Below are positions 9,576 through 60,018 of a DNA stretch of 64,000 nt, one piece after another. The stretch spans positions 186,001 to 250,000 of the forward strand of contig JAJFIQ010000028.1 in assembly GCA_021774785.1 (NCBI GenBank). The letters are read 5' to 3'. The notes under the pieces are model-generated. The model was given only the letters and a program-made list of their open reading frames with translations. It was not told the DNA's origin and searched no databases. How positions within the stretch are numbered: the stretch's first letter is position 1; each line of letters begins with the position of its first letter. Made by a program: the position numbers and the translations under genes. This stretch comes from Emcibacter sp. (GTDB lineage Bacteria; Pseudomonadota; Alphaproteobacteria; Sphingomonadales; Emcibacteraceae).

Positions 9576-9620
9576 ATACGTTGGTAATACCAACTATTTT
9601 TGTTGGCTATGCCAACGTAT
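9576..9620. promoter_or_regulatory. Double palindromic operator upstream of TonB receptor 1
   Basis: Two palindromes, GTTGGTAATACCAAC (9580-9594) and GTTGGCTATGCCAAC (9602-9616), have centres 22 bp apart. They are enclosed by an outer inverted repeat ATACGTTGG / CCAACGTAT (9576-9584 and 9612-9620). The centre spacing equals that of the operator at 5200-5234, which also contains a GTTGGAATACCAAAC-like core. Regulation by the same MarR protein is a reasonable inference. Confidence 0.6.
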
Positions 9621-9709
9621 TTTATAAAAATCAATAATGTTGCAAAATCGTCACATATTTTACGCCCTTATTTGGCCTGTTTATGAGTGTCAGGCACCTT
9701 GTATCTTTG

Positions 9710-11050: not shown

Positions 11051-11113
11051 TATTCGTTCCCGAATTTAATTGCTATTCTTTGTACTGAAAATTTTCCATA
11101 TGGAAAATAAAAG

Positions 11114-11138
11114 GGGAGTGCTTGCCTTAAGCACTCCC
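11114..11138 (-). terminator. Terminator after TonB receptor 2
   Basis: A perfect 10-bp stem (GGGAGTGCTT / AAGCACTCCC) with a 5-base loop. On the minus strand it is followed by CTTTTATTTT, a proper U-tract, so it works as an intrinsic terminator between the receptor (ends 11162) and the MFS gene (starts 11050). Confidence 0.8.
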
Positions 11139-11161
11139 TAAATTATTGTTATATCAAATTC

Positions 11162-13420: not shown

Positions 13421-13611
13421 AATTTCCTCTCCTTTATTAGCCCTTTAAAGCCATAACATTCTCGTGCCTTGGCTACTGATAAAACTGATTAAACATAATT
13501 ATTCCAGATTACCAGTAACGCCCGCAACCTACTCTGTGTCCAATTCTATTCACTATAATACTCATGAGAAAAATACTCGGACGCCCCCTTGAATATTTTT
13601 CTTGTTCACAC

Positions 13612-42792: not shown

Positions 42793-43679
42793 TTTTTCCA
42801 GTATAGTTTCATGGGGTTATCCACCAACAATTTTTGCCGCAACTCATTTGTTGGTGCAATATGTGGAATAATATCAACCAAATGTCCATCATCAGCCATA
42901 TGGGATTTTAAATTCGGATGCGGCCAATCGGTTCCCCATAATACTCTGTCGGGGAAACTTTCAACCACTTTACGGGCAAAGGGTATCACATCGCTGTAAT
43001 GGGGCGGACCTTCCCCGGATAGGCGCTCCGGGCAGGATACTTTGGACCAGAAATTCTCATTTTCTGCCATCAGCTTCAGAAAAAGTTCGAACTCTGGTCC
43101 ATCCACGGGCGAAAACACATCAGGCCTGCCCATATGATCCACCACCACGATTGTAGGCAGGCTGGTAAAAAAATCATATAATTCCGGTAGATCCTGTGCC
43201 TCGAAATAAATTACAATATGCCAGCCAAGCTTTTTAATACGGTGGGCGATTTCCACCAGAGGTTCTTTGGGCAAGGCATCGACCAGACGCTTGACAAAAT
43301 TAAACCGTACACCCCGAACCCCCGCATCATCCAAAGCCTGTAATTCCGCGTCCGTTACCTGCGGCTTAACCGTTGCGACGCCCCGTGCCATGCCCTCCGC
43401 TGACTTTAGTGCATCAACTAATGCGCTATTATCAGCCCCATGACAGGTGGCCTGAACCAGAACATTGCGGCTGAAACCCAAATGATCCCTGAGTGCCCAA
43501 AGCTGATCTTTTGAGGCATCACAGGGGGTATATTTCCGTTCTGGCGCAAAAGGGAAAATATCCCCCGGGCCAAATACATGACAATGGGCGTCCACCGCCC
43601 CTACAGGCGGAATATAGCCGGGTATTGACGGTGCCGGGTGCCAATCAAGCCAGCCTGGCGTTTTTTCAAAACGGCTCAC
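42789..43679 (-). CDS. ligI: 2-pyrone-4,6-dicarboxylate hydrolase
   Basis: A 296-residue amidohydrolase-superfamily protein of the LigI type. It has PPVGAVDAHCHVFGPGDIFPFAPERKY (His-x-His replaced as in the family), NVLVQATCHGADNSALVDAL, GVRGVRFNFVKRLVDALP, VDHMGRPDV and LWGTDWPHPN with the active-site Asp. It opens the pyrone lactone to 4-oxalomesaconate without a metal ion. It overlaps ligJ upstream and ligC downstream by 4 bases each, giving a tight translational chain. Confidence 0.94.
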   Translation of the reverse strand: MSRFEKTPGWLDWHPAPSIPGYIPPVGAVDAHCHVFGPGDIFPFAPERKYTPCDASKDQLWALRDHLGFSRNVLVQATCHGADNSALVDALKSAEGMARGVATVKPQVTDAELQALDDAGVRGVRFNFVKRLVDALPKEPLVEIAHRIKKLGWHIVIYFEAQDLPELYDFFTSLPTIVVVDHMGRPDVFSPVDGPEFELFLKLMAENENFWSKVSCPERLSGEGPPHYSDVIPFARKVVESFPDRVLWGTDWPHPNLKSHMADDGHLVDIIPHIAPTNELRQKLLVDNPMKLYWKK

Positions 43680-44701
43680 TGACCTCTGGCTTTCAGTATT
43701 TTATCAAGGCGCGGATAGACCCGACGGGCATTACCTTCATAAACTTTATAAACATCCTCATCTGACAGATTCAGGTTATCCACATAGCGCTTTGTATCAT
43801 CAAAATTCTGGCCGGTTTCCGGATCAATGCCGCGCACGGCCCCAACCATTTCAGAGCCGAACAGAATATTATCAATATCAATAACATCAAACAGCAGGTC
43901 AATACCCGGCTGATGATAAACACAGGTGTCAAAGAAAATATTTTTCATCACATGAGTATCCAGCAATGGCTTTTTCAGCATATCTGCAAGACCCCTGTAT
44001 CTGCCCCAATGATAGGGCACCGCACCGCCACCATGGGGGATGATGAAACGCAAATCCGGGAAATCCTTGAATAAGTCCCCCTGCAAAAACTGCATAAAAG
44101 CATTGGTGTCGGCGGCTATATAATAAGAGCCTGTTGCATGAAATGCCGGATTACAGGAGCCAGAGACATGAATCATCGCCGGCACATCAAGTTCTACCAT
44201 TTTTTCGTAAAAAGGGTACCAGTATTTATCGGTCAAAGGGGGAGAGTTCCAATGACCGCCAGAGGGATCAGGGTTCAGATTGCAGCCGACAAAACCCAGT
44301 TCATTGACACAACGACTTAACTCTTCAATGGAATTAGTCAGCGTGCCCCCCGGTGTTTGTGGCAGCTGGCAAACCCCGATGAAGGTATCCTGATAAAGAT
44401 CGGTTACACGGCCAATGAGATTATTGCAGGCGACCGACCAAGCTTGTGAGGTTTCTGCATCCCCCACATGGGGTTCCATGCGCGAAGCTCGCGGTGAAAA
44501 AATGGTCATATCCGCCCCGCGCTCCCTGATTAACTTCAGCTGGTTAGCCTCAATACCCTCTCGGATTTCATCATCACTGATATGGGGCGCATCCGGTGCG
44601 GGCAGGCCAGGGTTGCCAAGGCGCGCAACCTGTGCATCACGGTAATCAAGATGCGCTTGTGGTACGATGGTTTGATGCCCATGACAGTCAATAATTTTCA
44701 T
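43676..44701 (-). CDS. ligJ: 4-oxalomesaconate hydratase
   Basis: A 341-residue amidohydrolase-superfamily hydratase, the usual LigJ length. Motifs are IDCHGHQTIVPQAH (metal ligands), ADMTIFSPRASRMEPHVGD, FVGCNLNPDPSGGHWNSPPL, FIIPHGGGAVPYHWGR and LFGSEMVGAVRGIDPETG. LigJ hydrates 4-oxalomesaconate to 4-carboxy-4-hydroxy-2-oxoadipate. The gene follows a DUF1932 reductase by 17 bases and overlaps ligI. Confidence 0.94.
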   Translation of the reverse strand: MKIIDCHGHQTIVPQAHLDYRDAQVARLGNPGLPAPDAPHISDDEIREGIEANQLKLIRERGADMTIFSPRASRMEPHVGDAETSQAWSVACNNLIGRVTDLYQDTFIGVCQLPQTPGGTLTNSIEELSRCVNELGFVGCNLNPDPSGGHWNSPPLTDKYWYPFYEKMVELDVPAMIHVSGSCNPAFHATGSYYIAADTNAFMQFLQGDLFKDFPDLRFIIPHGGGAVPYHWGRYRGLADMLKKPLLDTHVMKNIFFDTCVYHQPGIDLLFDVIDIDNILFGSEMVGAVRGIDPETGQNFDDTKRYVDNLNLSDEDVYKVYEGNARRVYPRLDKILKARGQ

Positions 44702-44718
44702 AACCCAGTATCCTCTCC

Positions 44719-45588
44719 TCAGATGTTTTTTATCAACGCATTAAGCATTGCTCTCATATCCGTTGAAGCAATTTCATTGGCGCGTGTGCCCAGATAATCC
44801 TGACTCTTGGCGCAGGCAGCACTCATTAACGGGTCAAGGCCCACATCAGCAACCGTATTGGCCACTTCACGCATTTCTTCTGCCCGCCGTCCACCATGCT
44901 TTATACAGCGGGAAATCATATAGGGTGCAAGCGTTTCCCAGTCTAGGCCCGGAAATAGGTCATCAAGGGACATCAACACCATGTCATCCACGTCATATTG
45001 TCGTGCCGTAAGCAGAGATTCACTCAGCAAGGTCTCCATCCCCTTAACAATAATACTGCGGCACATTTTAGCAGCCGATGCCTTGCCATAATCACCTGAA
45101 AAAACCGATGATCCGACCAGGCCAATATCCTGAGCCAAAATGTAAAATTCCGAAGCATGCGGCCCACCCAGCAAAATTGGTGTCGCAAGACGTTTTGGGG
45201 CGATGGGCGACATAACCGCCCCTTCCACATAATAACCGCCCGCAGTATTTATAATTTCTGCGGCCTCTTTCTTCACATTGGGAGAGGCCGAATTTATATC
45301 CAGATAGAAAGTTCCTGGTTTAAGTCCTGCGACAACATTCTTCGCCGCTTCAACTGTCTGGGCGGCGGTTACCGCAGAAAATATGATATCAGCGCCCTTG
45401 GCCGCATCATGACCATTGTTACCAGCATCCACCGCACAACACGCCAGTGCCCGCGAAGGCAGACTATCCTTATCCGTGAATTTGGTATCCCATGCTGTGA
45501 CCTTGGCAATATTAGCATTCAAAAGGTCAATAGAAAAACATTGGCCTACCTCGCCAAAACCAATAAGGCATATATGCTTTATACTCAT
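44719..45588 (-). CDS. NAD(P)-binding 6-phosphogluconate-dehydrogenase-like protein (DUF1932 type)
   Basis: A 289-residue beta-hydroxyacid-dehydrogenase-like protein. The N-terminal NAD(P) fold is clear in ICLIGFGEVGQCFSIDLLNANIAKVTAWD; the middle has LKPGTFYLDINSASPNVKKEAA, the catalytic-type lysine lies near ASAAKMCRSIIVKGME, and the end is a DUF1932-like helical domain. Such genes sit beside ligK, ligU and ligJ in several 4,5-cleavage clusters, but the reaction is not settled. Start 45588 is used because GGAG lies between it and an earlier ATG at 45600. It lies 36 bases after ligK. Confidence 0.78.
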   Translation of the reverse strand: MSIKHICLIGFGEVGQCFSIDLLNANIAKVTAWDTKFTDKDSLPSRALACCAVDAGNNGHDAAKGADIIFSAVTAAQTVEAAKNVVAGLKPGTFYLDINSASPNVKKEAAEIINTAGGYYVEGAVMSPIAPKRLATPILLGGPHASEFYILAQDIGLVGSSVFSGDYGKASAAKMCRSIIVKGMETLLSESLLTARQYDVDDMVLMSLDDLFPGLDWETLAPYMISRCIKHGGRRAEEMREVANTVADVGLDPLMSAACAKSQDYLGTRANEIASTDMRAMLNALIKNI

Positions 45589-45624
45589 ATGCCACTCCAT
45601 ATTCTAATGGCCGTTCCCCTCACT

Positions 45625-46320
45625 CTAGTCCAAATCAGCCTGATCAATATATTTCAAACCGCGTTCCGCAAGCCGTGGACGCATATTATAAATATCAAGG
45701 CCAAGCTCCCCCGCAGCAAAACGGGCGCGGGTTTTGGCTTCTTTTTCCTCACGCTCAATGGATTTTTGCAGCACAGCCTCAGCATCATATCGAGCAACAA
45801 CCACAACACCATCATCATCAGCAACAATAAGGTCACCCGGATTAACTTGTGCCCCTGCACATACGATGGGGATATTAACGCTACCCAGCGTCTCCTTAAC
45901 CGTACCCTGAGCAAATACGCATTTCGACCAGACGGGAAAATTCATTTCTGTCAGATCCTTCACATCCCGCACACCAGCATCAATCACCAATCCTCTAACA
46001 CCACGGGCCTGCAGGGATGTTGCCAGTAAATCACCAAAATAGCCCGCATCTGAATAAGAGGTTGGTGAAAGCACGAGTATGTCGCCTTCCTGACATTGTT
46101 CAACCGCTACATGAATCATCCAGTTATCGCAGGGTGCCGCGCTGACAGTTACGGCTGTACCCGCTATATATGCTCCCGAATAAATAGGGTTGATGTTCGC
46201 TGCCAGAAGACCTGTACGCCCCTGCGCCTCATGCACAGTAGCGACCCCGTACCGACCATCCGAATAGCTTTGCACAATTGACTTCTCTACACGTTTAATA
46301 TTTTGCACAACAAGATTCAT
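45625..46320 (-). CDS. ligK: 4-carboxy-4-hydroxy-2-oxoadipate aldolase (LigK/GalC, RraA fold)
   Basis: A 231-residue class II pyruvate aldolase of the HMG/CHA type. It opens [39 protein letters not shown] and holds [31 protein letters not shown], where Arg and Asp of AGVRD are the substrate and metal residues. The frame extends 51 codons further upstream, but ATG 46320 has AAGGAA ahead and matches family N-termini. LigK splits 4-carboxy-4-hydroxy-2-oxoadipate to pyruvate and oxaloacetate. It is the first gene of the lig operon. Confidence 0.93.
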
Positions 46321-46434
46321 ACCACTATTCCTTAACCGAAAAGTAACAACGCAACCAGCACCATCAACCAAAATTACGTTGTTATATGTTATGTATAGAA
46401 GGTGGCGTTTAAATATGCCATTAACAAAAAAGCC

Positions 46435-46450
46435 AAATGTAATTACATTT
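46435..46450. promoter_or_regulatory. Perfect 16-bp palindrome upstream of ligK
   Basis: AAATGTAATTACATTT is fully symmetric and lies 115 bases before the ligK start, in a gap (46321-46731) with no complete gene. It is a good candidate operator for the ligKJIC operon. No adjacent regulator gene identifies the binder. Confidence 0.45.
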
Positions 46451-46662
46451 AATGACTCCCCCGAGCTTATCATATTTATTTTGTCATAGTCTATGTTGTC
46501 CCATGATGTTAACTTCGGTGATATTGGGCATATGGGTTATCTTACAGGCAAAATCTAAAAATATATTCATCGCTAGTCTTGGTAAAGAATTTCGGAGGGC
46601 CCAAACTAGAATTCTCAAAATATAACAAGAGGATTTACAGGCTTCATTTTCAGGAATGATAG

Positions 46663-46731: not shown

Positions 46732-48240
46732 TTAATTGGCAACGGCTTGAATTAAGCCATGACCGTAAGTGGTATCAAAGCCTTTTGCCCCAAGGTCTTT
46801 AGCAATTTTTTCTAAGATTTTAACAATATTATCATTATCATGAGAGTCATTCACAAAGGCCAAATCCGCTAATATGGCACTGACAAATGGGGCCGCTATG
46901 GAGGTTCCAGACCTTGCCTGATAACCTCCTCCCGCATGGGCCGCTGGAATATTCACACCGGGAGCCGAAAAGGCTACATGCCGTCCCCGGTTAGCGCGCC
47001 AATAAACATTATGCTCTTTATCAACAGCCGTTACTGCCACAACGCCAGAATATGCCGCCGGATAAAGTAATGATGCCGTAGGCCCCGCATTGCCAACAGC
47101 GGCCACAATCATGATCCCCTTGGCCAGTACTTTCTTGATAGCAATTTCAAGAAGGGGGTTCGACGGGCCACTTAAGCTCATATTTATGACCTGAACTTTT
47201 TGCTGCACCATCCAGTCCAAGGCATAAATCAGACTCTCGGTCGTGGCAGCAACTTTAGTCTCGCTCTGCATGAAAAATACACTCGCCGCATAAAGTTTGG
47301 CACCAATGGCTACCCCTTTATAAATATCCGGTTCATTACCCACCAAAATGGAGGCCACGGCTGTGCCATGTGCTTTGGGGCGCGTTTTATCATAGGGGAC
47401 GAAATCTTCGATCAGGATCACTTCATTCTGTAAAGACGCATGAGATTGGTCAACCAAGGTATCAATTAAACCAAGACTTATTTCCCCTGAATGAGATGTG
47501 TTTATCTTCAGGTTTGCTGAAATATCCGCTATTGAATACGGAATATCCTCATTATCTATACTTCGGGATTCGGGCACAAAAAGATGATTTAAGCCAATAC
47601 CGCCGTCCTCTACCATGCTCTCCATTTCGGAAGCCGATTCTGACAGTATTGTATCCTTGGAGGTGGCCACCCGAATTAAAACCATATCCAGACCCTTCAG
47701 ATATTTTCGCTCTTTAATCTGGTATTTATTTTCTGCTATTTTCAAATCGGCATCCTTTGTTGCCAGTATAAGCAACTCGTCACCGATGGCTTCAAACCCA
47801 TTATCATCATAAATATCCTGATGTTTTCGAAGCTGGCGACTGATTGCAATTTCCCTTGCTTGACGCGATTTTTTATTGACAATCTGGGATGCGTTTTCTT
47901 TTAATTTCTGCTCACGGCGTAAACTACGCTCTGCTGCCCTTTCTGCGGCCTTTTTTGTGGCTTTCATTTCTACTTTCATTTCTGCGCGTTTTGCCGCGCG
48001 CCTTAACGCACGTTCCGCCATACGCTCCGTCATATTATCTGAAATTCTGTCAATTTTTCGGACTTGGGTCTGTGAAACGAGTGATATGCCAAAGCTGCTA
48101 TAGCTAATAGCGGGAAGTATCATTGAACCCTGCTGTGCCTGAGCATCATCCATTCGTATATTCACGGCAAGGACGAACAGGAGACAGAAGACAGCACCCC
48201 TCCTTAACAGAACTGAAAATGAAGTAATGAGGTTTTTCAT
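46732..48240 (-). CDS. Subtilisin-like S8 serine peptidase with basic helical N-terminal region
   Basis: A 502-residue secreted protease. A signal peptide (residues 1-36, ending near DAQAQ) is followed by a strongly basic Ala/Arg/Lys/Glu-rich stretch at about 65-140 (ERALRRAAKRAEMKVEMKA and on), then a linker and the S8 domain with Asp260 (GLIDTLVD), His291 (AHGTAVAS), Asn384 (AVGNAG) and Ser447 (SGTSIAAP), so the triad is complete. The helical region could bind the Glu/Ala-rich repeat proteins nearby. A putative ECF promoter (48312-48341) on the minus strand drives it, linking it to the divergent sigma factor. Confidence 0.9.
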   Translation of the reverse strand: MKNLITSFSVLLRRGAVFCLLFVLAVNIRMDDAQAQQGSMILPAISYSSFGISLVSQTQVRKIDRISDNMTERMAERALRRAAKRAEMKVEMKATKKAAERAAERSLRREQKLKENASQIVNKKSRQAREIAISRQLRKHQDIYDDNGFEAIGDELLILATKDADLKIAENKYQIKERKYLKGLDMVLIRVATSKDTILSESASEMESMVEDGGIGLNHLFVPESRSIDNEDIPYSIADISANLKINTSHSGEISLGLIDTLVDQSHASLQNEVILIEDFVPYDKTRPKAHGTAVASILVGNEPDIYKGVAIGAKLYAASVFFMQSETKVAATTESLIYALDWMVQQKVQVINMSLSGPSNPLLEIAIKKVLAKGIMIVAAVGNAGPTASLLYPAAYSGVVAVTAVDKEHNVYWRANRGRHVAFSAPGVNIPAAHAGGGYQARSGTSIAAPFVSAILADLAFVNDSHDNDNIVKILEKIAKDLGAKGFDTTYGHGLIQAVAN

Positions 48241-48311
48241 TTATTTTTTCGCATGATTTGGCATAATGATTATTTCTTTTCACATATAAAAATTAAAAAC
48301 GTCTAATCTAT

Positions 48312-48341
48312 AGTAACGCTAGAAAATTGTTTTTTATTCCC
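48312..48341 (-). promoter_or_regulatory. Putative ECF promoter for the S8 peptidase
   Basis: On the minus strand it reads GGGAATAAA, 14 bases, CGTTACT. Element sequence and spacing match the two other candidates (48449-48478 and 49834-49863), with only the last two bases of the -10 differing. It lies about 72 bases upstream of the peptidase start. Confidence 0.6.
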
Positions 48342-48448
48342 AAAAATAAAAGAATTACTTATTTTAAGATAATACTGACCATTCATGAATGTCACATTAA
48401 GAAAAATATACCAGCTTTTCACACTTTATTTATTTATTTAATAAAATT

Positions 48449-48478
48449 GGGAATAAAGTCATACTGTGAAACGTTAAG
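48449..48478 (+). promoter_or_regulatory. Putative ECF promoter for the sigma/anti-sigma operon
   Basis: GGGAATAAA (48449-48457), 14 bases, CGTTAAG (48472-48478), identical in both elements and in spacing to the site before the repeat protein. Only eight bases separate the -10 from the ATG at 48487, so the transcript would be nearly leaderless, and AAGGA overlaps the -10. Confidence 0.6.
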
Positions 48479-48486
48479 GATACTGA

Positions 48487-49035
48487 ATGAAGACTGAAGC
48501 CGAACAATGGCGTGACGACATAATAGCTTTACTGCCCCGACTTAGGCGGTTTTCTTTTTCACTCACAGGCTCTGCCGCTGATGCGGATGACCTGCTGCAG
48601 AATACCATTGAAAAAGCGTTGTCAAGATACGACCAGTTCGAGCAGGGTACAGACCTTGATAAATGGATGTTTAGAATGTGCAAAAACCTTTGGATAGACG
48701 AATGGCGGTCACGAAAAGTCCGTGGACATAGCGTAGACCCCATGGATTATCAAAATGAACAATGGATAGACGGTGAAGATATTGCCATTAACAAACTGGG
48801 CATGTCAGAAGTCAAAACCGCCATGAATAAATTGCAAGATGAGCAGCGCGTCATTATTTTCCTTATAACCGTCGAAGGCTATTCCTATAAAGAAGCCTCA
48901 ATCTTTCTGGATATCCCCATTGGAACTGTTATGAGCCGCCTTGCACGGGCGCGTAAAGCTCTGGAACTAGTGCTTAGTCCACCCATCAGCCCGGATGACA
49001 TTGCAAACGGGAATAGGCAAAGGAGTCCGCTATGA
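48487..49035 (+). CDS. ECF-type RNA polymerase sigma factor
   Basis: A 182-residue group IV sigma factor. Sigma2 is seen in LPRLRRFSFSLTGSAADADDLLQNTIEKALSRYDQF and MFRMCKNLWIDEWRSRK. Sigma4 is seen in LQDEQRVIIFLITVEGYSYKEASIFLDIPIGTVMSRLARARKAL with its helix-turn-helix. It overlaps the next gene by ATGA (49032-49035). Putative target promoters of the form GGGAATAAA-N14-CGTTA precede it, the divergent protease and the first repeat protein, suggesting autoregulation of an envelope response. Confidence 0.93.
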   Translation: MKTEAEQWRDDIIALLPRLRRFSFSLTGSAADADDLLQNTIEKALSRYDQFEQGTDLDKWMFRMCKNLWIDEWRSRKVRGHSVDPMDYQNEQWIDGEDIAINKLGMSEVKTAMNKLQDEQRVIIFLITVEGYSYKEASIFLDIPIGTVMSRLARARKALELVLSPPISPDDIANGNRQRSPL

Positions 49036-49817
49036 TTATTACCGATGAAATACTGAATGCATATCTTGATGGTGAATTAACCGTTGAGGAAATAGCGGAA
49101 GTTGCCACGCAAATTGAAAAATCTCCTGAGTTGATCAAACGCGTCGAGACTATGCGCCAGTATGACAAAACAATTGTCAGAACTTATCACGCCATTGATA
49201 CAAAACCTATGCCCGACAGCATCATGGCCATGCTTGAAAATTTTCCGGAAAACCAGAAAACCGTCCTGCCTTTCAAAAAGAAGCCAACCGCACCCATAAG
49301 GTCACCAAAATGGCAAATGGCTATGGCGGCTAGTATTGCACTATTCATCGGGTTTGGAGCCGGACAAACGCTTATGGCACCGTCTTCAGAGACAGCCACT
49401 TCTGCTGAGAATATTATGGTTCAGCAAAATTCCGGTATCATCGGGCCGGACAACATCCTTTTCTCCGCCCTTGAAAATCACCCAAGCGCAACCCCTTTTA
49501 CCATACTTGCCGGCAATGATACCACGGTCATACCCGCTATGACCTTTCGTACAGCCGATAATGGTTATTGCCGTGAATATAGTGTCATAAGTCAGAAATC
49601 ATCCACACAGAATGTGGCTTGCCGTGTTGAAAACACATGGCTCCTCAAACTATCTGTTGGAACAGCAGGCCAATCGCCATCAGAAAACGGACTGTACCAA
49701 ACCGCAAGCCATCTGTACAATCCTGCCATCAATTCTATCATTCAGAATCTGATCGTTGGGGACGCCTTAAGCGCCGATGACGAAGCACAAGTCATGAAAC
49801 AGAACTGGCATCAATAA
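49032..49817 (+). CDS. Transmembrane anti-sigma factor
   Basis: A 261-residue protein translationally coupled to the sigma gene. The N-terminal cytoplasmic domain has the anti-sigma pattern DEILNAYLDGELTVEEIAEVATQIEKSPELIKRVE, without the zinc HxxxCxxC motif. One membrane helix (MAMAASIALFIGFGAGQTLM, about residues 96-116) is followed by a periplasmic domain with two cysteines (NGYCREYS, NVACRVEN) that may form a disulfide. It would hold the sigma factor inactive at the membrane until an envelope signal releases it. Confidence 0.85.
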   Translation: MIITDEILNAYLDGELTVEEIAEVATQIEKSPELIKRVETMRQYDKTIVRTYHAIDTKPMPDSIMAMLENFPENQKTVLPFKKKPTAPIRSPKWQMAMAASIALFIGFGAGQTLMAPSSETATSAENIMVQQNSGIIGPDNILFSALENHPSATPFTILAGNDTTVIPAMTFRTADNGYCREYSVISQKSSTQNVACRVENTWLLKLSVGTAGQSPSENGLYQTASHLYNPAINSIIQNLIVGDALSADDEAQVMKQNWHQ

Positions 49818-49833
49818 TAATTTTTCTTTTCTC

Positions 49834-49863
49834 GGGAATAAAATAAGCGGGTCATCCGTTAAG
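49834..49863 (+). promoter_or_regulatory. Putative ECF promoter for the Ala/Glu/Arg-repeat protein
   Basis: GGGAATAAA (49834-49842), 14 bases, CGTTAAG (49857-49863), about 75 bases before the ATG at 49939. It is identical in elements and spacing to the site at 48449-48478. Confidence 0.62.
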
Positions 49864-49938
49864 CATTAAAAGGACGAAAATAACATTTCTCCTTTTTTAC
49901 AAACCGCTTCTAGTAACAGAGAAAAGAAAGATATAGTT

Positions 49939-50442
49939 ATGAAAATATTATCCCACACAGCAATTTATGTTGCGAGCTTTTTATGCGCCGCAAATATCAG
50001 TACATATTCTATGGCCGATGACAACGTGTCATCTGCTCTCACTGATGAACAGATCGCCGCCCGCGATGCTGCCAGAGAAGAGCATAGAGAAGCCCATGAA
50101 ACAGCCAGAGAAGATAATCAGGCTGCGCGTGAAGCTGCCAGAGAAGAATATCGCACCGCCCGTGAAGTGGCGAGAGAAGAACATCGTGCCGCCCATGAAG
50201 AAGCACGCGAAGCTGGTGAAGTTATAGATGAAGCGGCCCGTGAAGCACACCGGGAAGCTCATGAAGCGGCCCGCGAAGCAAATCAGGAAGCACGCGAGGC
50301 AGCCCGTGAAGCAAGCCAAGAAACCCGTGAAGCTGCCCGTGAAGCACACCGGGAAGCCCATGAAGTTGTTAGAGAAGCCCGCATAGAAGCGCGTGAAGCA
50401 GCCAGAGATGCCGTCAATGATGCGACTGATGACGGCGAATAA
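49939..50442 (+). CDS. Exported Ala/Glu/Arg-rich repeat protein 1
   Basis: A 167-residue protein with a signal peptide (MKILSHTAIYVASFLCAANI, cleavage near MADD) followed by a low-complexity helix of REAxREAxE units: AREEHREAHETAREDNQ, AAREAHREAHEAAREANQ and so on over about 110 residues, interrupted once by GEVIDEA. It has no Cys in the mature part and no known domain. The charge pattern predicts a long single alpha-helix or coiled coil in the periplasm. A putative ECF promoter precedes it. Function is unknown; a spacer, an envelope stress buffer or a protease substrate are possibilities. Confidence 0.75.
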   Translation: MKILSHTAIYVASFLCAANISTYSMADDNVSSALTDEQIAARDAAREEHREAHETAREDNQAAREAAREEYRTAREVAREEHRAAHEEAREAGEVIDEAAREAHREAHEAAREANQEAREAAREASQETREAAREAHREAHEVVREARIEAREAARDAVNDATDDGE

Positions 50443-50461
50443 AATATAACCCCGCTCTGGG

Positions 50462-50480
50462 CAGCCCTAATATAGGGCTG
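50462..50480. terminator. Hairpin after repeat protein 1
   Basis: A perfect 8-bp stem CAGCCCTA / TAGGGCTG with a 3-base loop, 20 bases after the stop of the repeat protein. No clear U-tract follows, so termination strength is uncertain. Confidence 0.55.
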
Positions 50481-50493
50481 TCTCGCTACGGGC

Positions 50494-50820
50494 GAAATAT
50501 GACACTCCCCACATCAGCTTTAAATCGGATAGACGCTTCAACCTTTCCATTGAGATGACAAGCCACTGGATCTTTCTTTTGAATATAGTGCATTTATTTC
50601 AGGTGCTGATGGATCGCCATGGGAAAGACAAAATCAATGGGTTCTTGGGGCGGCATATTTTCTGAAAGATAGTGTAAAACTGTTTGCCGAAGGCATATTG
50701 GTTCAAGGCTACACACCCTTAAATTTCATCAGTGGCGGCAACTTGTTACCCGGCACAACTCACAGCGATCAAAATGTTCGCAATACAGGTGTTGTAATGG
50801 GTATAAATGTGGCATTCTAA
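50494..50820 (+). pseudogene. Outer membrane beta-barrel protein remnant
   Basis: There is no start codon, but two frames give continuous barrel-like sequence. The first reads KYDTPHISFKSDRRFNLSIE (to about 50553). The second, shifted by one base, reads DDKPLDLSFEYSAFISGADG, continues through NQWVLGAAYFLKDSVKLFAEGILVQGY and ends with GVVMGINVAF and a stop at 50818-50820. Alternating aromatic strands and the C-terminal Phe are typical of porin-like proteins. It is interpreted as a decayed 3' end of an outer membrane protein gene, about 108 codons long, with one frameshift. Confidence 0.6.
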
Positions 50821-50880
50821 CTAGCCTGACTGGAAAATATAAAGGCTCTCTGTTCAAGGGGGCCTTTATTATTTTTAGGA

Positions 50881-52785
50881 TTACGGCACGGGGTCCTCAG
50901 CAGCAGCATCTTCTGCAGCTTCCTGTGCGGCCCGTTCAGCTTCCTCCTGTGCTGCCTGCTCAGCTTCCTCCTGTGCGGCCCGTTCAGCTTCCTCCTGTGC
51001 GGCCCGTTCAGCTTCTTCCTGTGCGGCCCGTTCAGCTTCCTCCTGTGCGGCCCGTTCAGCTTCCTCCTGTGCTGCCTGCTCAGCTTCCTCCTGTGCTGCC
51101 TGCTCAGCTTCCTCCTGTGCTGCCTGCTCAGCTTCCTCCTGTGCGGCCCGTTCAGCTTCCTCCTGTGCTGCCTGCTCAGCTTCCTCCTGTGCGGCCCGTT
51201 CAGCTTCTTCCTGTGCTGTCTGCTCAGCTTCCTCCTGTGCTGCCTGCTCAGCTTCATCCTGTGCCGCATCCTCTGCTTCATCCTGTGCCGCGTCCTCTGC
51301 TTCTTCCTGTGCGGCCTGCTCAGCTTCCTCCTGTGCGGCCTGCTCAGCTTCCTCCTGTGCCGCATCCTCAGCTTCATCCTGTGCCGCATCCTCAGCTTCA
51401 TCCTGTGCCGCATCCTCAGCTTCATCCTGTGCCGCATCTTCAGCTTCATCCTGGGCCGCATCCTCAGCTTCCTCCTGTGCCGCATCCTCAGCTTCATCCT
51501 GTGCCGCATCCTCAGCTTCATCCTGGGCCGCATCTTCAGCATCTTTTACGGCGTCTTGTGCCGCCCGCTCAGCTTCCTTAGTGGCTTCCTGCGCCGCTTT
51601 TTCGGCTTCTTCAACAGCGTCCTGTGCGGCTCTCTCTGCTTCGCGGGTGGTACCCTCTTCTGCTTCTTCAGCCGCCTTAGCCCCATCCTCTGCCGCATCC
51701 TCAGCTTCACGGGCCGCATTTCCTGCATTTTCAACCGTGTCTTCTGATTTATCTAACTCTTTTATAATGGTGCCAAGAGGCAATATATCCGTGATCAGAT
51801 TATCCGATTGTAACGGTTCATTTTGGCCCGGTTTTTCAGAGGTGGTCATGCCGATAGTTTTCACATCTATCTTTGACATATCACCGGAACTATCGAGTAA
51901 TCCGGTTACGATAACCCGATTTTTCTGAGGCTGGTCACTATCCCTACCGGAAACATCACCGGTCTCCTGCAAGGCTACACCACTGACATGTGACTTACCG
52001 TTTTCATCAGTTGTGTATATGCCCTGTACAGATATGGCAGCCACGGATTTTGGAAATGGTAGAGCGGGCTGAACTTCAATAGCGGCGACTTTAAAACTGC
52101 CGTCGACAAATTGACCATCCACAATGATAATATTGCCTTTTTCATAGGTCACATCTTTGGAATCTATACGTAATGCGCCGACGGAGAAACCACTATCATC
52201 AGGGTCTGAGACTATGCCACGTACATGCTGTGGAGAATCTTTGGCAACGGACACTAGGCGTGTCGCGAAAATAATGCCATTTTCATCCCGAAAACCACTA
52301 ACTGCGAGAACCATATCGTTTTTCTGAAGATCGTCCATGGGTAATGCCATAACCGTATCCGGAGAAAGACGCACGCTTTGCCCTAAAACCGTCAACTCTA
52401 CCTCACCGCTAGCATTTATTTTGGCCTGTACAGGGCCGACGACTTCTTCAATAATACGGATAGATCGGGCCTCTATCCGGCCAGAAATATCATCAGTAAC
52501 CACAGCTACGACCTGACCAAGGGCAAGATCGCCTGTTGTCTTATCTCCGGCCCTTTTAGAGACGAGCATATCATCAGGGTAATGAATCTCCACATCATTC
52601 ACCCAAATGCTACCGAACTTATCAATACGACCAAATATTCCCGTACCGCCTATACCGCCCGGTTGGACAGTGATACCGGTCCCGCCAATACCACCCGGCA
52701 TCCGCCCAAGGGCAAACAGCAGGGCAGCTATAAAAAGTATAGTCCCCGCTATTATACGTAGGTCCATAGTCCAAATACGGTTCAT
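50881..52785 (-). CDS. DUF5666-type protein with C-terminal Ala/Glu/Gln octapeptide repeats
   Basis: A 634-residue protein. It has one N-terminal membrane or signal helix (about residues 9-27) and a duplicated GGIGGTG motif (GGIGGTGITVQPGGIGGTGI). A beta-rich region with several DUF5666-like units follows to about residue 330 (IWVNDVEIHYPDD, VGPVQAKINASGEVELTVLGQSVRL). A helical Ala/Glu region comes next, and then 26 tandem octads AE[DQR]AAQ[DE]E before the end AEDPVP. It overlaps the DUF6502 gene by 4 bases. The tail should form a very long acidic helix in the periplasm; function unknown. DUF5666 and DUF6502 genes are, to my knowledge, often neighbours. Confidence 0.75.
   Translation of the reverse strand: MNRIWTMDLRIIAGTILFIAALLFALGRMPGGIGGTGITVQPGGIGGTGIFGRIDKFGSIWVNDVEIHYPDDMLVSKRAGDKTTGDLALGQVVAVVTDDISGRIEARSIRIIEEVVGPVQAKINASGEVELTVLGQSVRLSPDTVMALPMDDLQKNDMVLAVSGFRDENGIIFATRLVSVAKDSPQHVRGIVSDPDDSGFSVGALRIDSKDVTYEKGNIIIVDGQFVDGSFKVAAIEVQPALPFPKSVAAISVQGIYTTDENGKSHVSGVALQETGDVSGRDSDQPQKNRVIVTGLLDSSGDMSKIDVKTIGMTTSEKPGQNEPLQSDNLITDILPLGTIIKELDKSEDTVENAGNAAREAEDAAEDGAKAAEEAEEGTTREAERAAQDAVEEAEKAAQEATKEAERAAQDAVKDAEDAAQDEAEDAAQDEAEDAAQEEAEDAAQDEAEDAAQDEAEDAAQDEAEDAAQDEAEDAAQEEAEQAAQEEAEQAAQEEAEDAAQDEAEDAAQDEAEQAAQEEAEQTAQEEAERAAQEEAEQAAQEEAERAAQEEAEQAAQEEAEQAAQEEAEQAAQEEAERAAQEEAERAAQEEAERAAQEEAERAAQEEAEQAAQEEAERAAQEAAEDAAAEDPVP
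50917..51540 (-). repeat. 24-bp in-frame tandem repeat, about 26 copies
   Basis: A minisatellite inside the DUF5666 gene. The unit, read on the plus strand, is close to CTCAGCTTCCTCCTGTGC plus six bases (GGCCCG, TGCCTG or CGCATC). It encodes AExAAQxE. Variants are zoned: the D form near 51245-51540, the Q and R forms near 50917-51245. The multiple-of-three period keeps all frames open, which produces long artefact reading frames on both strands here. Confidence 0.9.
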
Positions 52786-53636
52786 GGCTTTCGCTCACTA
52801 TCATCTTCAGCATAGAAATAAATACCAAAAGTTACACGCTTTGTACCTTCCAAAGGTTTATTTTCTGCTTCAAGTAATTGCTGGGCTTCCCGGTTAAGGT
52901 TAAGCAACACATCCATGCCTTCTTTTTCCGCCCGCTTTTCAAGAAGTTTCACAGCGTCAGCACTCAAGCCATAATGATATACAGACCGTTCCAGAAAAGG
53001 CTTGTTAACACCCGCTATATTATTCCCGGCAGCGGCAAGATGATCATGTATATTCCGACCAAAATGAACCAGAAGTTCTTCCATATCCTCTCTTGGGATG
53101 AAAGCAGATTGTTTCAATATTACTGTATCATAAGGACCAAGGCTCAAAACCTGTCGCTTAACAAGGTCGTCCAGGACAGCCCGTGGCCGGATGTCTTTAC
53201 TAATTGAGCTGACCAAAGCTTCAAAGGATGGGGTTTTGTCTTTAGTTTTAAATCTGGCGAGGACGGCAGGATCACCATGCTCATCCAAATATTCAGATGA
53301 GCCGCGCCATTTCGCAATGATTTGTGCGCCTAGAGAATTCGCAGCATGGGGAAGGTCATCTTCGCCGGCCTGTTCACGGAATTTCTTGATATCCTTACGG
53401 TGTACGCCAGTGACGAGTGAAATTCGGCTGTCGGTTGGTCTTTTATCAGGAACCAAACGGAAGTCTTTGTCAACGGTATCAACAAAAGCATGTTTAAGCA
53501 TTTCTGAAACCATGGGGAAGGTTACGCCGTGGGTAATGAGGGTTTTGACGATTGGCCTCAGGATACGGCGGATAGCCTTCAGAAAGAAATCTGAAGGCTG
53601 TCCTGAGTTTGTAGCTTTTTTTGCGTCATTTTTCAT
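52782..53636 (-). CDS. DUF6502 family protein
   Basis: A 284-residue soluble protein with no signal peptide. The N-terminal half resembles DUF6502: FLKAIRRILRPIVKTLITHGVTFPMVSEMLKHAFVDTVDKDF and RISLVTGVHRKDIKKFRE, which has the look of a helix-turn-helix. The C-terminal half has LLEKRAEKEGMDVLLNLNREAQQLLEAE and ends RVTFGIYFYAEDD. It heads a two-gene operon with the DUF5666 repeat protein (ATGA overlap). A regulatory role is plausible but not shown. Confidence 0.7.
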   Translation of the reverse strand: MKNDAKKATNSGQPSDFFLKAIRRILRPIVKTLITHGVTFPMVSEMLKHAFVDTVDKDFRLVPDKRPTDSRISLVTGVHRKDIKKFREQAGEDDLPHAANSLGAQIIAKWRGSSEYLDEHGDPAVLARFKTKDKTPSFEALVSSISKDIRPRAVLDDLVKRQVLSLGPYDTVILKQSAFIPREDMEELLVHFGRNIHDHLAAAGNNIAGVNKPFLERSVYHYGLSADAVKLLEKRAEKEGMDVLLNLNREAQQLLEAENKPLEGTKRVTFGIYFYAEDDSERKP

Positions 53637-53699
53637 TACGTCTCAAGGTTTATATTAATGAACCTGAAATTCTCCGAACCTGTATCGTCAATTGTTATC

Positions 53700-54638
53700 T
53701 TAAAATTCAAAACCGATCTCAAATGATACGAGGCTTTCCTTATAATCAGCTGAGGGCAGATTAGATGAGGCATCGGTATAGCGATATTTAAGACTGGCCG
53801 TAAAACTATCCCAAAATGGAATTTCAATCATGCTCTCAATACTGACACGCTCATCATCCCGTGCTACGCCCAATGATGGTGTTATGCCGTCATAATTGCG
53901 TTTTACGTAACGGCCACCGATGCGAAAGCGGGCATCCCTGTCGCCCCAGGGGAATTTTACCTGATACCGTACCTTGGCATCATGACCATTATAATCGAAA
54001 TGATCCGCGTTGGCATCAAGGCTATCATACCGATAGCTGAACATAAGATATGTTTTAGATTTATTCGTGAAGTAAAATGCAGTGCCCCCAAGACTATGGG
54101 TTTGGGCATCACGATCATTGCTCGTTTCCAGATTTTTATCCGTATAGGAATAATCGGCACGAATATAAAGGGCCGGCGTCGCAAAGAATGCCACGTAAGG
54201 TGCTGCTTTATGGATTTGCAGAAAGCTTTCACCGCCAAGACTTGTATTAATATATAAATAGCTCACACCAAGATCAAAACCATCAAATTTATGTTTAGCC
54301 AGGGCTGTCAGCACATGAGACTGAAGATCAAAATTAGTGGCATCTTCATGTAGACTCTGTGAAAAGCTGTAACCCACGTCAAAGGATGTCGCTTCATCGG
54401 CTTCAAATTCATAGTTGGCAGAAAAATCTATCAGGCCAGCGACATCGCCCTCACCCGTTTCAACGTCCACTTCCTGAACGGTGATATTACTGTCATATTC
54501 AATACCTGTACTCGCTTCGATGCTCCAGGGTTTGTTATCTGCTGCCAGTACTGACAGGGGATACATTGTTAGAAGAAATGCTATACTACTGCCCAGTGTT
54601 AAAGGCCGTGTAGATTGAAGAATAGTTTTTATGGTCAT
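53700..54638 (-). CDS. Outer membrane beta-barrel protein, SLAM-C/DUF560-like
   Basis: A 312-residue protein with a signal peptide (ending near VLAADNK, residue 34) and a barrel made of alternating strands: STGIEYDSNITVQEVD, YLMFSYRYDSLDAN, RFRIGGRYVKRNYDG, SLKYRYTDASSN, ending SFEIGFEF. The first strands resemble the surface lipoprotein assembly modifier barrel. It lies among the repeat-protein genes and may serve as their outer membrane partner, though nothing in the sequence proves this. Confidence 0.7.
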   Translation of the reverse strand: MTIKTILQSTRPLTLGSSIAFLLTMYPLSVLAADNKPWSIEASTGIEYDSNITVQEVDVETGEGDVAGLIDFSANYEFEADEATSFDVGYSFSQSLHEDATNFDLQSHVLTALAKHKFDGFDLGVSYLYINTSLGGESFLQIHKAAPYVAFFATPALYIRADYSYTDKNLETSNDRDAQTHSLGGTAFYFTNKSKTYLMFSYRYDSLDANADHFDYNGHDAKVRYQVKFPWGDRDARFRIGGRYVKRNYDGITPSLGVARDDERVSIESMIEIPFWDSFTASLKYRYTDASSNLPSADYKESLVSFEIGFEF

Positions 54639-54785
54639 TGGTAGTAGTTCCCTCTGATGTTTTTATACGATGAGCTTGACGAGGTAATAATACTGATCCC
54701 GTCAAGCTTTTAAATCAAATTTATTGTCGTTACTTTCATTTATAGAAAACCATCCTGTAATTAAGGCTAGGTGGTATTCAATAGA

Positions 54786-55196
54786 TCAAGTGTTATCATC
54801 TACTGAATCTGATGCTTCATCATTAGCCTCTTCCTCAGCAGCTTCACGGGCAGCATCTTCAGCTTCCTCAGCAGCTTCACGGGTGGCATCTTCAGCTTCC
54901 TCAGCAGCTTCACGGGCAACATGCTCAGCTTCGGTTTCCGTGCCACTGCGGTGAGTTTCTTCTTCTGCTTCATCTTCAGCAGCTTCACGGGCAGCATGCT
55001 CAGCTTCGGTTTCCGTGCCGTCTCTATGATTTTCCGTTTCATTCTCAACTTCATCAGATATCGTTTCTGGATCATCACTACTTATTACAAATCTATTATC
55101 TTGGGCGAAGTCGCTATCGGCAAAAACAATGGCACATGGATAGGTCAGTGCAATAGCCGTACTGAGTAACAGTGTTTTCAAAGTTGCTTTGGTCAT
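54786..55196 (-). CDS. Exported Ala/Glu-rich repeat protein 2
   Basis: A 136-residue protein. The ATG at 55196 has AAAGGG six bases upstream and begins a signal peptide (TKATLKTLLLSTAIALTYPCAIVFADS). The mature part has two copies of HRxGTETEAEHxAREAAE and then AREAAEEAEDATREAAEEAEDA repeats. The end is acidic (SDSVDDNT). It shares the Ala/Glu/Arg helix style and similar DNA units with the proteins at 49939 and 50881, so the three look like one diverging family. Function unknown. The 370-bp gap before folA holds palindromes at 55326-55342 and 55363-55376 but no gene. Confidence 0.72.
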   Translation of the reverse strand: MTKATLKTLLLSTAIALTYPCAIVFADSDFAQDNRFVISSDDPETISDEVENETENHRDGTETEAEHAAREAAEDEAEEETHRSGTETEAEHVAREAAEEAEDATREAAEEAEDAAREAAEEEANDEASDSVDDNT

Positions 55197-55325
55197 CGTG
55201 GTCCCTTTCATTATAATTTTTACTCTGTGGCAGTCTTCATGAACACGCCGTTGAGTTCTCCGGTAGTCTAGTGACCAATCCCGAGCATTATGTAAACGGA
55301 AGTGGTAAATGAAAAATTAATATAT

Positions 55326-57359: not shown

Positions 57360-57791
57360 ATGTACGGCAAACAAAATTTAAACTTTCTGTCATTAATTGT
57401 GTCCCGTCTTGGTCACAGATTAGGCCAGTTTGTATTATTTGTTTTACTCATGAACTTCATGTCCACGGCGGCTCTGTCTGCGAGCAGTATGGGTATGAAA
57501 GATGATTTTCAGGCAGATACTGGTAGTTTTGTAATCTGCACGCCTCAGGGACTGAAACGAATTTCCCTTGATGAGAATGGCAATCCCGTCGATGACGATA
57601 AAGGCCGGTTGGAACATTGTGTCTATTGCCTTCCCTTTCAAAAGGTCGCTTTAGGGTCATCAAATTTTGAGTATAACTTTGCTGTCGCCAATCTTATTTC
57701 CTTAAAACCCAGATACAGGCACTCTATTTCCGTTACCCCTGATGTGCCACTGAATACCGCCTGCCCACCCCGTGCTCCCCCCTATATATAA
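57360..57791 (+). CDS. DUF2946-like small exported protein, copper-associated
   Basis: A 143-residue protein with an N-terminal membrane or signal helix (about residues 22-42), a cysteine motif FVICTPQGL, a later HCVYCLPFQ and a C-terminal PRAPPYI. The pattern of CTP, HCxYC and a terminal RAPP is that of DUF2946-type proteins encoded next to copper-related TonB receptors. It precedes such a receptor by about 80 bases. The Cys/His pairs suggest metal binding in the periplasm. Confidence 0.65.
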   Translation: MYGKQNLNFLSLIVSRLGHRLGQFVLFVLLMNFMSTAALSASSMGMKDDFQADTGSFVICTPQGLKRISLDENGNPVDDDKGRLEHCVYCLPFQKVALGSSNFEYNFAVANLISLKPRYRHSISVTPDVPLNTACPPRAPPYI

Positions 57792-57873
57792 TCGCAAACA
57801 CTTTTGATAAGAAATAATACGACCCATCCGGGTTCGTAAGCTTTTATATATTTAGATTATTTAGGGAAGAGAA

Positions 57874-60018
57874 ATGTCCAAGCGGAATTTACTCAAGAAG
57901 CACCTCTTTTTAGGTGTCAGTACTTCTATTATCGGCATGAACCAACATGTCATGGCCCAAACCGTAATTATCAAACCACAGAATAATATGGATGAAATTG
58001 TCGTTACAGGTACTCTGGTACAAAAGCCGGCATTATCCACAAGTGTCCCAAAGGATGCCGATGGAAAACCTACTGCCGATGCGGGAGATTACCTGCGCAA
58101 TATTCCCGGTGTCACCAGTGGCCGCATGAGCGGACATGCGCTTGAGCCTGTTATTCGCGGCCAAAGCAGAAGCCAGCTTAATATCATCAATGATGGTGCT
58201 TTCCTCGAAGGGGCTGGCCCAAACCGAATGGATACACCTGCGGCTTTTGCTGATATTGATACGGCTGATGTAGTGATTGTGCATCGCGGCTATCAATCAG
58301 TACAACATGGTCCCGGCGGCACGGGAGGAACGGTCATTGTTGAGCATAATGCCCCATCCTTTGAAAAGGGTCAGAATATCAAAGGTCGCCTTGACGGTGC
58401 TTACGAGAGCAATGGTAATATTTGGAGCATGGCTGGCAATGTCTCAGCCCGTTCTGATAAATTTTACATACGGTTAAATGGTCATTTCAAGGATGCCGGA
58501 AATTATGAGGACGGCCATGGTAATGAAGTCCTTACTTCTTTTAAAGTTTTTGGCGGCAGTGCAGAGGTTGGCTATAGCTATGACAATACTTTAGTCAATT
58601 TTGGCATAGCCCATGAAGAAACTCGTGACACATTTTTCCCCGGTAGTGCTATGGATTCCCCTGACGGTAACGCCACAATTATTCGTGGAAACTTACGCCA
58701 TAACTTTAATAATAATTCCGTTTTAAAGACTTTGGATGTTAATATTTACCGGTCACATGCCTTTCACCTAATGGATAATTTCTCCCTTAGGGAACGCATG
58801 ATGATGTTCCGGCAGGCCGAATTAGAAGCCACGACAACGGGCGGAAAAATTTCCGCCGGCCTTGAAGTGGAGAACGTAAACATTAGCATCGGCATAGACA
58901 TTAAAAATATCAACCATGATGGTCTGCGCCATGGCCATGATATGGACCGTACCAACATGGAGCCCATACAGTCCACTCTGATCCCGGATGCAACCATCAA
59001 TAATATCGGCTTCTTTGCCGAGGCGACAATGCCCCTTTCAGATAATATACAGATTAAAACTGGTTTTCGTTATGACAATGCAAAATCGTCTGCTGACAAT
59101 GGGGATATGCAAAATAACCTTCTTATGATGGATATGATGCCCATGTCGCCCAATATGCTTTATAATATGTATTACGGGGTTATGGCCACCGAACAGACGG
59201 ACAATAATCTGGGTGGGCTACTTCGTGCTGAATATGACATCAGTGATGATGCCGCCTTTTATATCGGTATCAGCCGCAGCAACAGAAGTGCCAATTCCGT
59301 TGAAAGATATATGGCAAGCTTAATGGGTGATATGGTCATGCCGTCCGGCATGATTATGAATATGAGCTGGGTTGGTAATCCCACCTTAAGCGCTGAAAAA
59401 CACACACAAATTGATATGGGGGTCGGGGTCAGAAAAACTGACTGGAATATATTATTTTCTGCATATTATGATGACATTAATGAATATATATTCCGTGACC
59501 GGGCCCATGGACAAGACACTATACTGCTGACCAATAATGCCCTTATATTCCGAAATATTGATGCCCGGATTTGGGGCTTCGAAGTTGAAGCCAGCGCCAA
59601 TATCACCCGTGAATTAAATATTTTTGGTAATATTTCCTATACCAATGGTCAGAATCAGGACTTGGATATTCCACTCTATCAAATACCGCCATTAAGTTAT
59701 GACCTGACCGTCACTTATGAGAAAGATTACTGGTCCGTGGGGGGGCACCTGCGCGGTGCCTTCAATCAAAATCGCATTGATGATAACCCCATGACAGGCA
59801 GTGGCCGGGATGCAGGCGAAACCTCTGGATACGACATAATCGATATATTTACATCCGCAAAAATTATGGAAAACACCAAGATTCGATTTGGGGTCTCTAA
59901 CTTATTTGATACATTTTATGCTAACCACTTAAATCGGGAAAGCCTTAATGATGCAACGACCGTAAGGGTAAATGAACCGGGTAGATCTTTCTATTTCCGT
60001 ATTCAGTCAGAACTCTAA
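57874..60018 (+). CDS. TonB-dependent receptor, copper receptor type (OprC/NosA-like), Met-rich
   Basis: A 714-residue receptor with a signal peptide (through HVMAQT) and TonB box MDEIVVTGTLV. Its plug segment RNIPGVTSGRMSGHALEPVIRGQ, GAGPNRMDTPAAFADIDTADVVIVHRGYQSVQHGPGGTGG is typical of the TonB copper receptor group. The barrel holds methionine clusters such as RERMMMFRQ, NLLMMDMMPMSPNMLYNMYY and MGDMVMPSGMIMNMSW, which are likely Cu(I) sites. Together with the DUF2946-like protein it may supply copper, for which the cbb3 oxidase is one consumer. A terminator hairpin follows. Confidence 0.85.
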   Translation: MSKRNLLKKHLFLGVSTSIIGMNQHVMAQTVIIKPQNNMDEIVVTGTLVQKPALSTSVPKDADGKPTADAGDYLRNIPGVTSGRMSGHALEPVIRGQSRSQLNIINDGAFLEGAGPNRMDTPAAFADIDTADVVIVHRGYQSVQHGPGGTGGTVIVEHNAPSFEKGQNIKGRLDGAYESNGNIWSMAGNVSARSDKFYIRLNGHFKDAGNYEDGHGNEVLTSFKVFGGSAEVGYSYDNTLVNFGIAHEETRDTFFPGSAMDSPDGNATIIRGNLRHNFNNNSVLKTLDVNIYRSHAFHLMDNFSLRERMMMFRQAELEATTTGGKISAGLEVENVNISIGIDIKNINHDGLRHGHDMDRTNMEPIQSTLIPDATINNIGFFAEATMPLSDNIQIKTGFRYDNAKSSADNGDMQNNLLMMDMMPMSPNMLYNMYYGVMATEQTDNNLGGLLRAEYDISDDAAFYIGISRSNRSANSVERYMASLMGDMVMPSGMIMNMSWVGNPTLSAEKHTQIDMGVGVRKTDWNILFSAYYDDINEYIFRDRAHGQDTILLTNNALIFRNIDARIWGFEVEASANITRELNIFGNISYTNGQNQDLDIPLYQIPPLSYDLTVTYEKDYWSVGGHLRGAFNQNRIDDNPMTGSGRDAGETSGYDIIDIFTSAKIMENTKIRFGVSNLFDTFYANHLNRESLNDATTVRVNEPGRSFYFRIQSEL

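Follow-up and report, generated by a model that had tools for sequence, protein, structure and literature searches.

A subtilase, an ECF sigma factor pair and a repeat protein under a common promoter signature: a candidate envelope-stress switch in Emcibacter

The stretch of DNA analysed here, hereafter the window, comprises 64,000 nucleotides from an Emcibacter sp. (G000:C21:186001-250000; G and L numbers label genomes and loci of relatives, respectively). Judged from its sequence, the segment 46732-55196 is two modules. Module A consists of a subtilase of peptidase family S8, an extracytoplasmic function (ECF) sigma factor, a putative anti-sigma factor and the repeat protein encoded from position 49939, while module B contains the repeat protein encoded from 54786, an outer-membrane barrel, a DUF6502 protein and a DUF5666 protein. 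Module A appears to behave as a regulon, in which a promoter signature ties the S8 gene, the ECF/anti-sigma operon and the 49939 repeat gene together. We propose, as a possible account that we would not yet call probable, that 46732-50442 is a self-contained envelope-stress switch in which the protease works with, and probably on, the anti-sigma factor, the effectors being the repeat protein and, in many relatives, a barrel. An earlier note on this DNA had listed the same genes, all of which lie where it placed them and whose repeats are well above chance, but had read them as one envelope module. That reading does not hold, because the module B genes lack the signature and the modules reside on separate contigs in G027; module B also forms its own cassette in both G024 and G027. 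The associated view that protease and repeat proteins belong together stands for the S8, ECF, anti-sigma and 49939 genes, which have the signature in common, and falls for the 54786 and DUF5666 genes, which are without it.

The signature, GGGAATAA-N15-CGTT, precedes the S8 gene (48315..48341, minus strand), the ECF/anti-sigma operon (48449..48475, plus strand) and the module A repeat gene (49834..49860, plus strand). These three exact copies, all within 1.5 kb, are the only ones in the window and in the 3.5-Mb genome. As the signature is placed before the operon of the ECF factor itself, we infer that it is the promoter recognised by this factor; its spacing and CGTT box fit an ECF promoter. 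A search of the window found no copy before the DUF5666, DUF6502, barrel and 54786 genes, so that modules A and B, although adjacent, have no signature in common. A larger regulon was rejected, as sites with at most one mismatch number 15 in the window's genome compared with 21 for the reversed pattern, and are thus background. Of the 43 exact sites of the pattern GGAATAA-N15-CGTT in 11 chosen genomes, 26 fall in the S8 locus; the other 17 are about as numerous as the sites of the reversed control in total (15). The triple (S8, ECF operon and repeat gene) is complete in eight of these genomes, and G045 has a single exact site in its S8 locus.

The signature also separates repeat genes by their surroundings. 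It precedes 14 of the 16 repeat genes in S8/ECF loci (one each in the window, L040, L043, L046, L047, L049, L060, L071, L074, L209, L212 and L214, and two in L042), compared with none of the 11 repeat genes outside such loci. Pattern widths vary slightly in this comparison, with a shuffled expectation of at most 0.03 each where computed, and the count excludes the repeat genes of L215, L217, L218 and L048, the last being cut by a contig end. The weakest assignment among the 14 is the L060 gene, whose exported product is larger and contains an acidic stretch. In L071, from Catenovulum agarivorans, the S8 gene, the ECF gene and a repeat gene adjoining its barrel partner are all preceded by the signature, even though the repeat/barrel pair lies ∼6-7 kb from the S8 gene. 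In the 60 divergent S8/ECF intergenic stretches of the named loci (nine of which had zero length, since the longest open reading frames (ORFs) overlap), a looser signature faces S8 in 11 cases and ECF in 15, where shuffles gave an expectation of ∼1.

The subtilase and its sigma factor partners

The S8 gene (46732..48240, minus strand; Pfam PF00082, 6.2e-36) encodes a signal peptide, a repeat/helix arm, a subtilisin-type prodomain and a catalytic domain with an intact triad. Signal peptides, here and below, and the transmembrane stretch of the anti-sigma factor were called from hydrophobic stretches, without a dedicated predictor. In the structure model a helix is predicted at residues 71-141, at low confidence (pLDDT blocks 52-69), and residues 63-140 carry a net charge of +0.17 per residue, which bears out the basic helix described in the earlier note. 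The prodomain is modelled at residues 150-223 with the order β-α-β-β-α-β and is followed by the subtilisin domain; the closest solved structure found by Foldseek is unprocessed pro-subtilisin E. The triad D260, H291 and S447 and the oxyanion residue N384 are invariant in 22 aligned S8 sequences (window included), and the window protein displays the Asp/His/Ser triad within an S8 fold that is the hallmark of peptidase S8.

The divergent ECF gene (48487..49035, plus strand) encodes regions 2 and 4 of a sigma factor, with Sigma70_r2 (PF04542) and r4_2 (PF08281) both above the cut-off, and is overlapped by the gene for the putative anti-sigma factor (49032..49817, plus strand). By eye, the latter has a hydrophobic stretch, and two Cys residues in its C-terminal part are invariant in 10 aligned sequences. 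Eight of these 10 proteins match zf-HC2 at E≤1, while in the window's member the zf-HC2 and anti-sigma matches remain below the cut-off.

Pairing of S8 with ECF recurs widely across Proteobacteria. Of the best 80 of 391 named loci, 77 have an ECF gene no more than 4 kb from the S8 gene and 69 have an anti-sigma gene there; L044 and L045 begin at contig ends, which hides any ECF neighbour. The two genes are divergent in 58 loci, co-directional in 17 and otherwise arranged in two, and the co-directional loci, many with weaker ECF scores, may be another type. Among 387 genomes of the class, 52 contain a match to the S8 profile at E≤1e-30. All 16 anti-sigma matches that span their profile (start position ≤4, end ≥253) lie within ∼1.1 kb of an S8 match, as compared by hand, while shorter N-terminal matches mostly lie away from S8. 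Other S8/ECF lineages look as if each hangs its own envelope genes on the common switch; in L058, L059, L083 and L085 the gene directly behind S8 encodes an exported DNGRVE.. protein with a weak DUF3108-like match, in some cases along with a Porin_4 protein. The Novosphingobium locus L095 contains two S8/ECF/anti-sigma sets within 7 kb (9587-14266).

Protease arm, repeat protein and a possible envelope switch

The module A repeat gene (49939..50442, plus strand) encodes an exported Ala/Glu/Arg protein with an 11-residue period. Both REA-type genes, this one and that at 54786, contain 33-bp tandem units well above chance; their products are repetitive to near the C-terminus, and neither protein matched a Pfam family. 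The prediction that S8 genes would be found next to such genes in other genomes was confirmed, with a charged repeat gene in eight of the 14 fetched loci of relatives, three loci ending at a contig edge before one could appear and three lacking it.

The arm of the protease and the repeat protein of the same locus are often alike, pairing AEEAAEQ with AEEAEEAAR in L046, EDDIEDDV with DDEIDDE in L048, EDDVEDEVEDR with DDVDDDVR in L209 and AAQAADS with DSASEAANDAA in L093. Over nine loci the similarity in composition is 0.691 compared with 0.558 for permuted pairs, a value reached in seven of 20,000 permutations (five of 20,000 in a first run). These nine derive from 13 loci, after L040, L042 and L043 were dropped as congeners of the window and L051 as a congener of L209. 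As L212 is a congener of L214, a further run with one locus per genus (eight loci) was performed, which gave 0.724 compared with 0.560 (one of 20,000). The arm was cut by a fixed sequence-motif rule, not at domain borders. Four control pairings (arm with anti-sigma factor, arm with barrel, repeat protein with barrel, and catalytic domain with repeat protein) were null. Gene conversion as the source of the matching repeats was rejected, as the longest DNA words common to arm and repeat gene of one locus span 8-20 bases, with the locus's own partner giving the longest word in two of nine rows.

It is unusual for fast-changing, low-complexity repeats to match between two proteins encoded at one locus, and this would offer a natural test of function kept while the repeat sequence drifts. 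It could nevertheless be unspecific. Salinity, codon usage or a tendency to repeat expansion may simply lead each lineage to favour exported low-complexity proteins of one type, such that arm and repeat protein never meet, a possibility to be taken seriously though we stop short of thinking it probable. Repeat expansion is plainly under way, and retaining loci only where a repeat gene was seen entails some selection. Controls within a genome point both ways: in G027 both modules show higher similarity within themselves than with the other module (0.80 vs 0.58; 0.78 vs 0.64), while the window is not clear, as its DUF5666 protein matches the repeat protein of the other module as well as its own (0.69 and 0.67). 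The G027 result, the null controls and the shortness of the shared DNA words are at odds with unspecific matching.

In the switch proposed above, the membrane anti-sigma factor would hold the sigma factor until the latter was freed by a signal from the envelope, for which the exported, Cys-containing part of the anti-sigma factor may be the sensor. The S8 protein would be made as an exported zymogen, comprising repeat arm, prodomain and catalytic domain, and the linkage of the genes suggests that it acts together with the anti-sigma factor and, most likely, cleaves it, creating positive feedback. The envelope effector would be the repeat protein, in many relatives together with the 14-strand barrel, a partnership suggested by the adjacency of their genes. 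As their compositions match, arm and repeat protein may meet like with like, so placing the protease. At its fullest the proposal becomes a subtilase-gated ECF switch with a repeat-based docking code, in which arm and co-regulated repeat protein recognise each other by like repeats whose sequence drifts while the match is kept, bringing the anti-sigma-cutting protease to the barrel; this extended version is speculative and, we consider, distinctly unlikely. Were the subtilase to act on the anti-sigma factor, the known mechanisms of sigma factor release would, to our knowledge, gain a further protease family. The neighbourhood also becomes a testable unit, with a promoter that can be named, three transcripts predicted as its targets and an arrangement found again elsewhere in Proteobacteria.

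Several observations weigh against the proposed switch. Among the 11 genomes searched, G042 and G037 contain no exact signature site, and the repeat genes of L051 and L093, although in S8/ECF loci, are without the signature. Even the looser form occurs in 11/60 and 15/60 intergenic stretches, and most of the distant loci thus do not show it. Many S8/ECF loci lack the repeat/barrel pair, and the repeat protein is therefore dispensable for the core switch. In the window itself arm and repeat protein match weakly (0.58) and have opposite net charges per residue (+0.14 and −0.13).

A further explanation, which we hold to be somewhat unlikely, is that the protease is merely an effector; the sigma factor would make a DegP-like clean-up protease, general proteases would cut the anti-sigma factor, and the repeat protein would be a second, independent effector. 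This fits the presence of the signature upstream of the S8 gene itself, as a target would have it, and htrA/degP is described as a target in the RpoE system of E. coli (PMC8103513). The near-constant linkage of S8 to the ECF and anti-sigma families is, however, tighter than a mere target needs.

The repeat/barrel pair and module B

The barrel gene of module B (53700..54638, minus strand) lies between the DUF6502 gene and the gene for the second exported Ala/Glu repeat protein (54786..55211, minus strand). It encodes a SlipAM/BBP2-like outer-membrane protein of 312 amino acids, which is modelled as 14 strands (mean pLDDT 89), the first beginning at residue 38, and hence is not the 'small' barrel of the earlier note. 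The window protein matches SlipAM at 27.3 bits, above the cut-off of 22, and seven of nine barrels match this family (best 2.4e-9), although other barrel families match too. In fold it resembles CymA (Z 22.0), OmpG (20.6) and PgaA (15.8). Slam has no entry among the fold matches listed, which excludes nothing, and there were no sequence relatives in the PDB at E≤0.01.

Of 80 relatives, 22 contain the barrel family, with 24 members in total, nine of which were used to build the profile. All 15 barrels outside the profile set share their locus with an exported, low-complexity charged gene, which was identified in 14 by the script's low-complexity rule and in L217 by a reading frame that runs off the contig. 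Applied to 20 control stretches (382 kb), the rule returned one gene; it also picks up some ORFs in the wrong frame next to genuine repeat genes, as in L049 and L209, and misses the L054 repeat gene, found by phmmer, whose entropy is 2.97 against a cut of 2.9. In 13 of the 15 loci barrel and repeat genes are adjacent; the exceptions are L212 and L214, where the barrel gene borders on the repeat-bearing S8 gene, with a separate repeat gene 4-5 kb away. The pair is seen with S8/ECF, with DUF6502/DUF5666 (window, L054 and L055) or alone, and is thus a building block in its own right, common to both modules. The module B pair is related to the module A type without having the signature, and in the window module A is without a barrel gene. 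The repeat protein of the barrel-only locus L219 (7993-9501) gave a sub-threshold apolipoprotein-like match (1.6e-06, under the cut-off), which fits amphipathic helices.

Between the 49939 and DUF5666 genes lies an open stretch of 88 codons (50554-50820, plus strand), possibly a gene remnant, with the barrel-like end GVVMGINVAF before the stop codon. As a candidate for a lost barrel gene behind 49939 it was rejected; there was no Pfam match, and tblastn hits among the fetched loci came only from the window's own genome.

The constant association of barrel and repeat gene invites a reading based on secretion, in which the 14-strand barrel is a translocation pore of the type 11 kind and the repeat protein a cargo set on the cell surface under stress. 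The SlipAM matches and the modelled strand number are consistent with this view, as is the report that Pls, a helical-repeat (EEARKA) protein, is a shown cargo of the type 11 secretion system (T11SS; PMC12282271). Nevertheless, we judge it unlikely. The window barrel protein, in which the barrel starts at residue 38, has no N-terminal tetratricopeptide repeat (TPR) part, the repeat proteins have no C-terminal barrel domain, the pores CymA and OmpG come closest in fold, and no barrel gene adjoins the repeat gene of module A in the window. The suggestion in the earlier note that complementary charge binds the repeat protein to the basic protease region, or that the repeat protein is its substrate, is improbable. 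As to charge, the opposite signs seen in the window recur only in L040 (L042 has +0.13 against about 0); in 10 of 13 loci arm and repeat protein both carry negative net charge, and the two charges correlate positively (rho +0.85, n=9; +0.90, n=13).

The remaining genes of module B encode the DUF6502 protein (52782..53636, minus strand; PF20112, 1.2e-19) and the DUF5666 protein (50881..52785, minus strand; PF18914, 1.6e-07), whose tail of 8-residue Ala/Glu repeats derives from 25.5 copies of a 24-bp unit, well above chance. The DUF5666 protein is thus identical with the second of the three repeat proteins listed in the earlier note. DUF6502 is present in four of 60 relatives (window's genome included) and in 20 of 387 class genomes. 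A DUF5666 gene lies beside it in the window, in 17 of the 19 class loci fetched (none was found in L233 and L239) and in L054-L056. No member of the barrel family was found in the 19 DUF6502 class loci or in L056. In L224 a charged, low-complexity exported ORF (8067-8618) lies beside the DUF6502/DUF5666 pair, in a locus with no barrel of the module B family. Among the papers searched, DUF5666 is mentioned in four and DUF6502 in none.

Neighbouring genes and known systems

Beside the S8 gene, a minus-strand run (42789-46473) of amidohydrolase-like and dehydrogenase-like ORFs leads to a LigK-type 4-carboxy-4-hydroxy-2-oxoadipate aldolase (NCBIfam, above the cut-off), which suggests a protocatechuate 4,5-cleavage pathway. 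On the other side, at 57360-60018 (plus strand), a DUF2946 protein followed by a TonB-dependent receptor is possibly a metal uptake pair.

Among the titles and abstracts listed by full-text searches, none describes the S8/ECF/anti-sigma/repeat/barrel set, although the ECF group may be known from ECF classification. Three known systems resemble its parts. The RpoE-RseA-DegS system is described as an ECF factor, a membrane anti-sigma factor and a periplasmic serine protease with envelope targets (PMC8103513). Module A likewise comprises an ECF factor, a putative membrane anti-sigma factor and an exported serine protease, a likeness known here from gene linkage. The protease is, however, a subtilase in place of an HtrA/PDZ protease, its gene is divergent from the sigma gene and, by the signature, would be under the same sigma factor, and there is no sign of a large regulon, the repeat protein being the predicted target. 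With subtilisin-type zymogens such as pro-subtilisin E the S8 protein has the prodomain fold and catalytic triad in common. Unlike pro-subtilisin E, the family described here has a prodomain preceded by a repeat arm, whose length ranges from ∼100 to almost 700 residues over 13 loci, and is near-constantly linked to an ECF pair.

Type 11 secretion (Slam/DUF560) with Pls-like cargo provides the third comparison. The accounts of this system describe a 14-strand barrel (PMC8406197) with a periplasmic TPR part at the N-terminus, NilB being an example (median length 481 amino acids), and cargo with a C-terminal eight-strand barrel (PMC12282271, PMC8406197). A SlipAM-like 14-strand barrel encoded beside a charged helical-repeat gene is common to both, but the barrel of the window is without the TPR part and the repeat proteins are without the C-terminal barrel. 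In contrast to type 11 secretion, the barrel and repeat genes described here are linked to ECF/S8 or to DUF6502/DUF5666.

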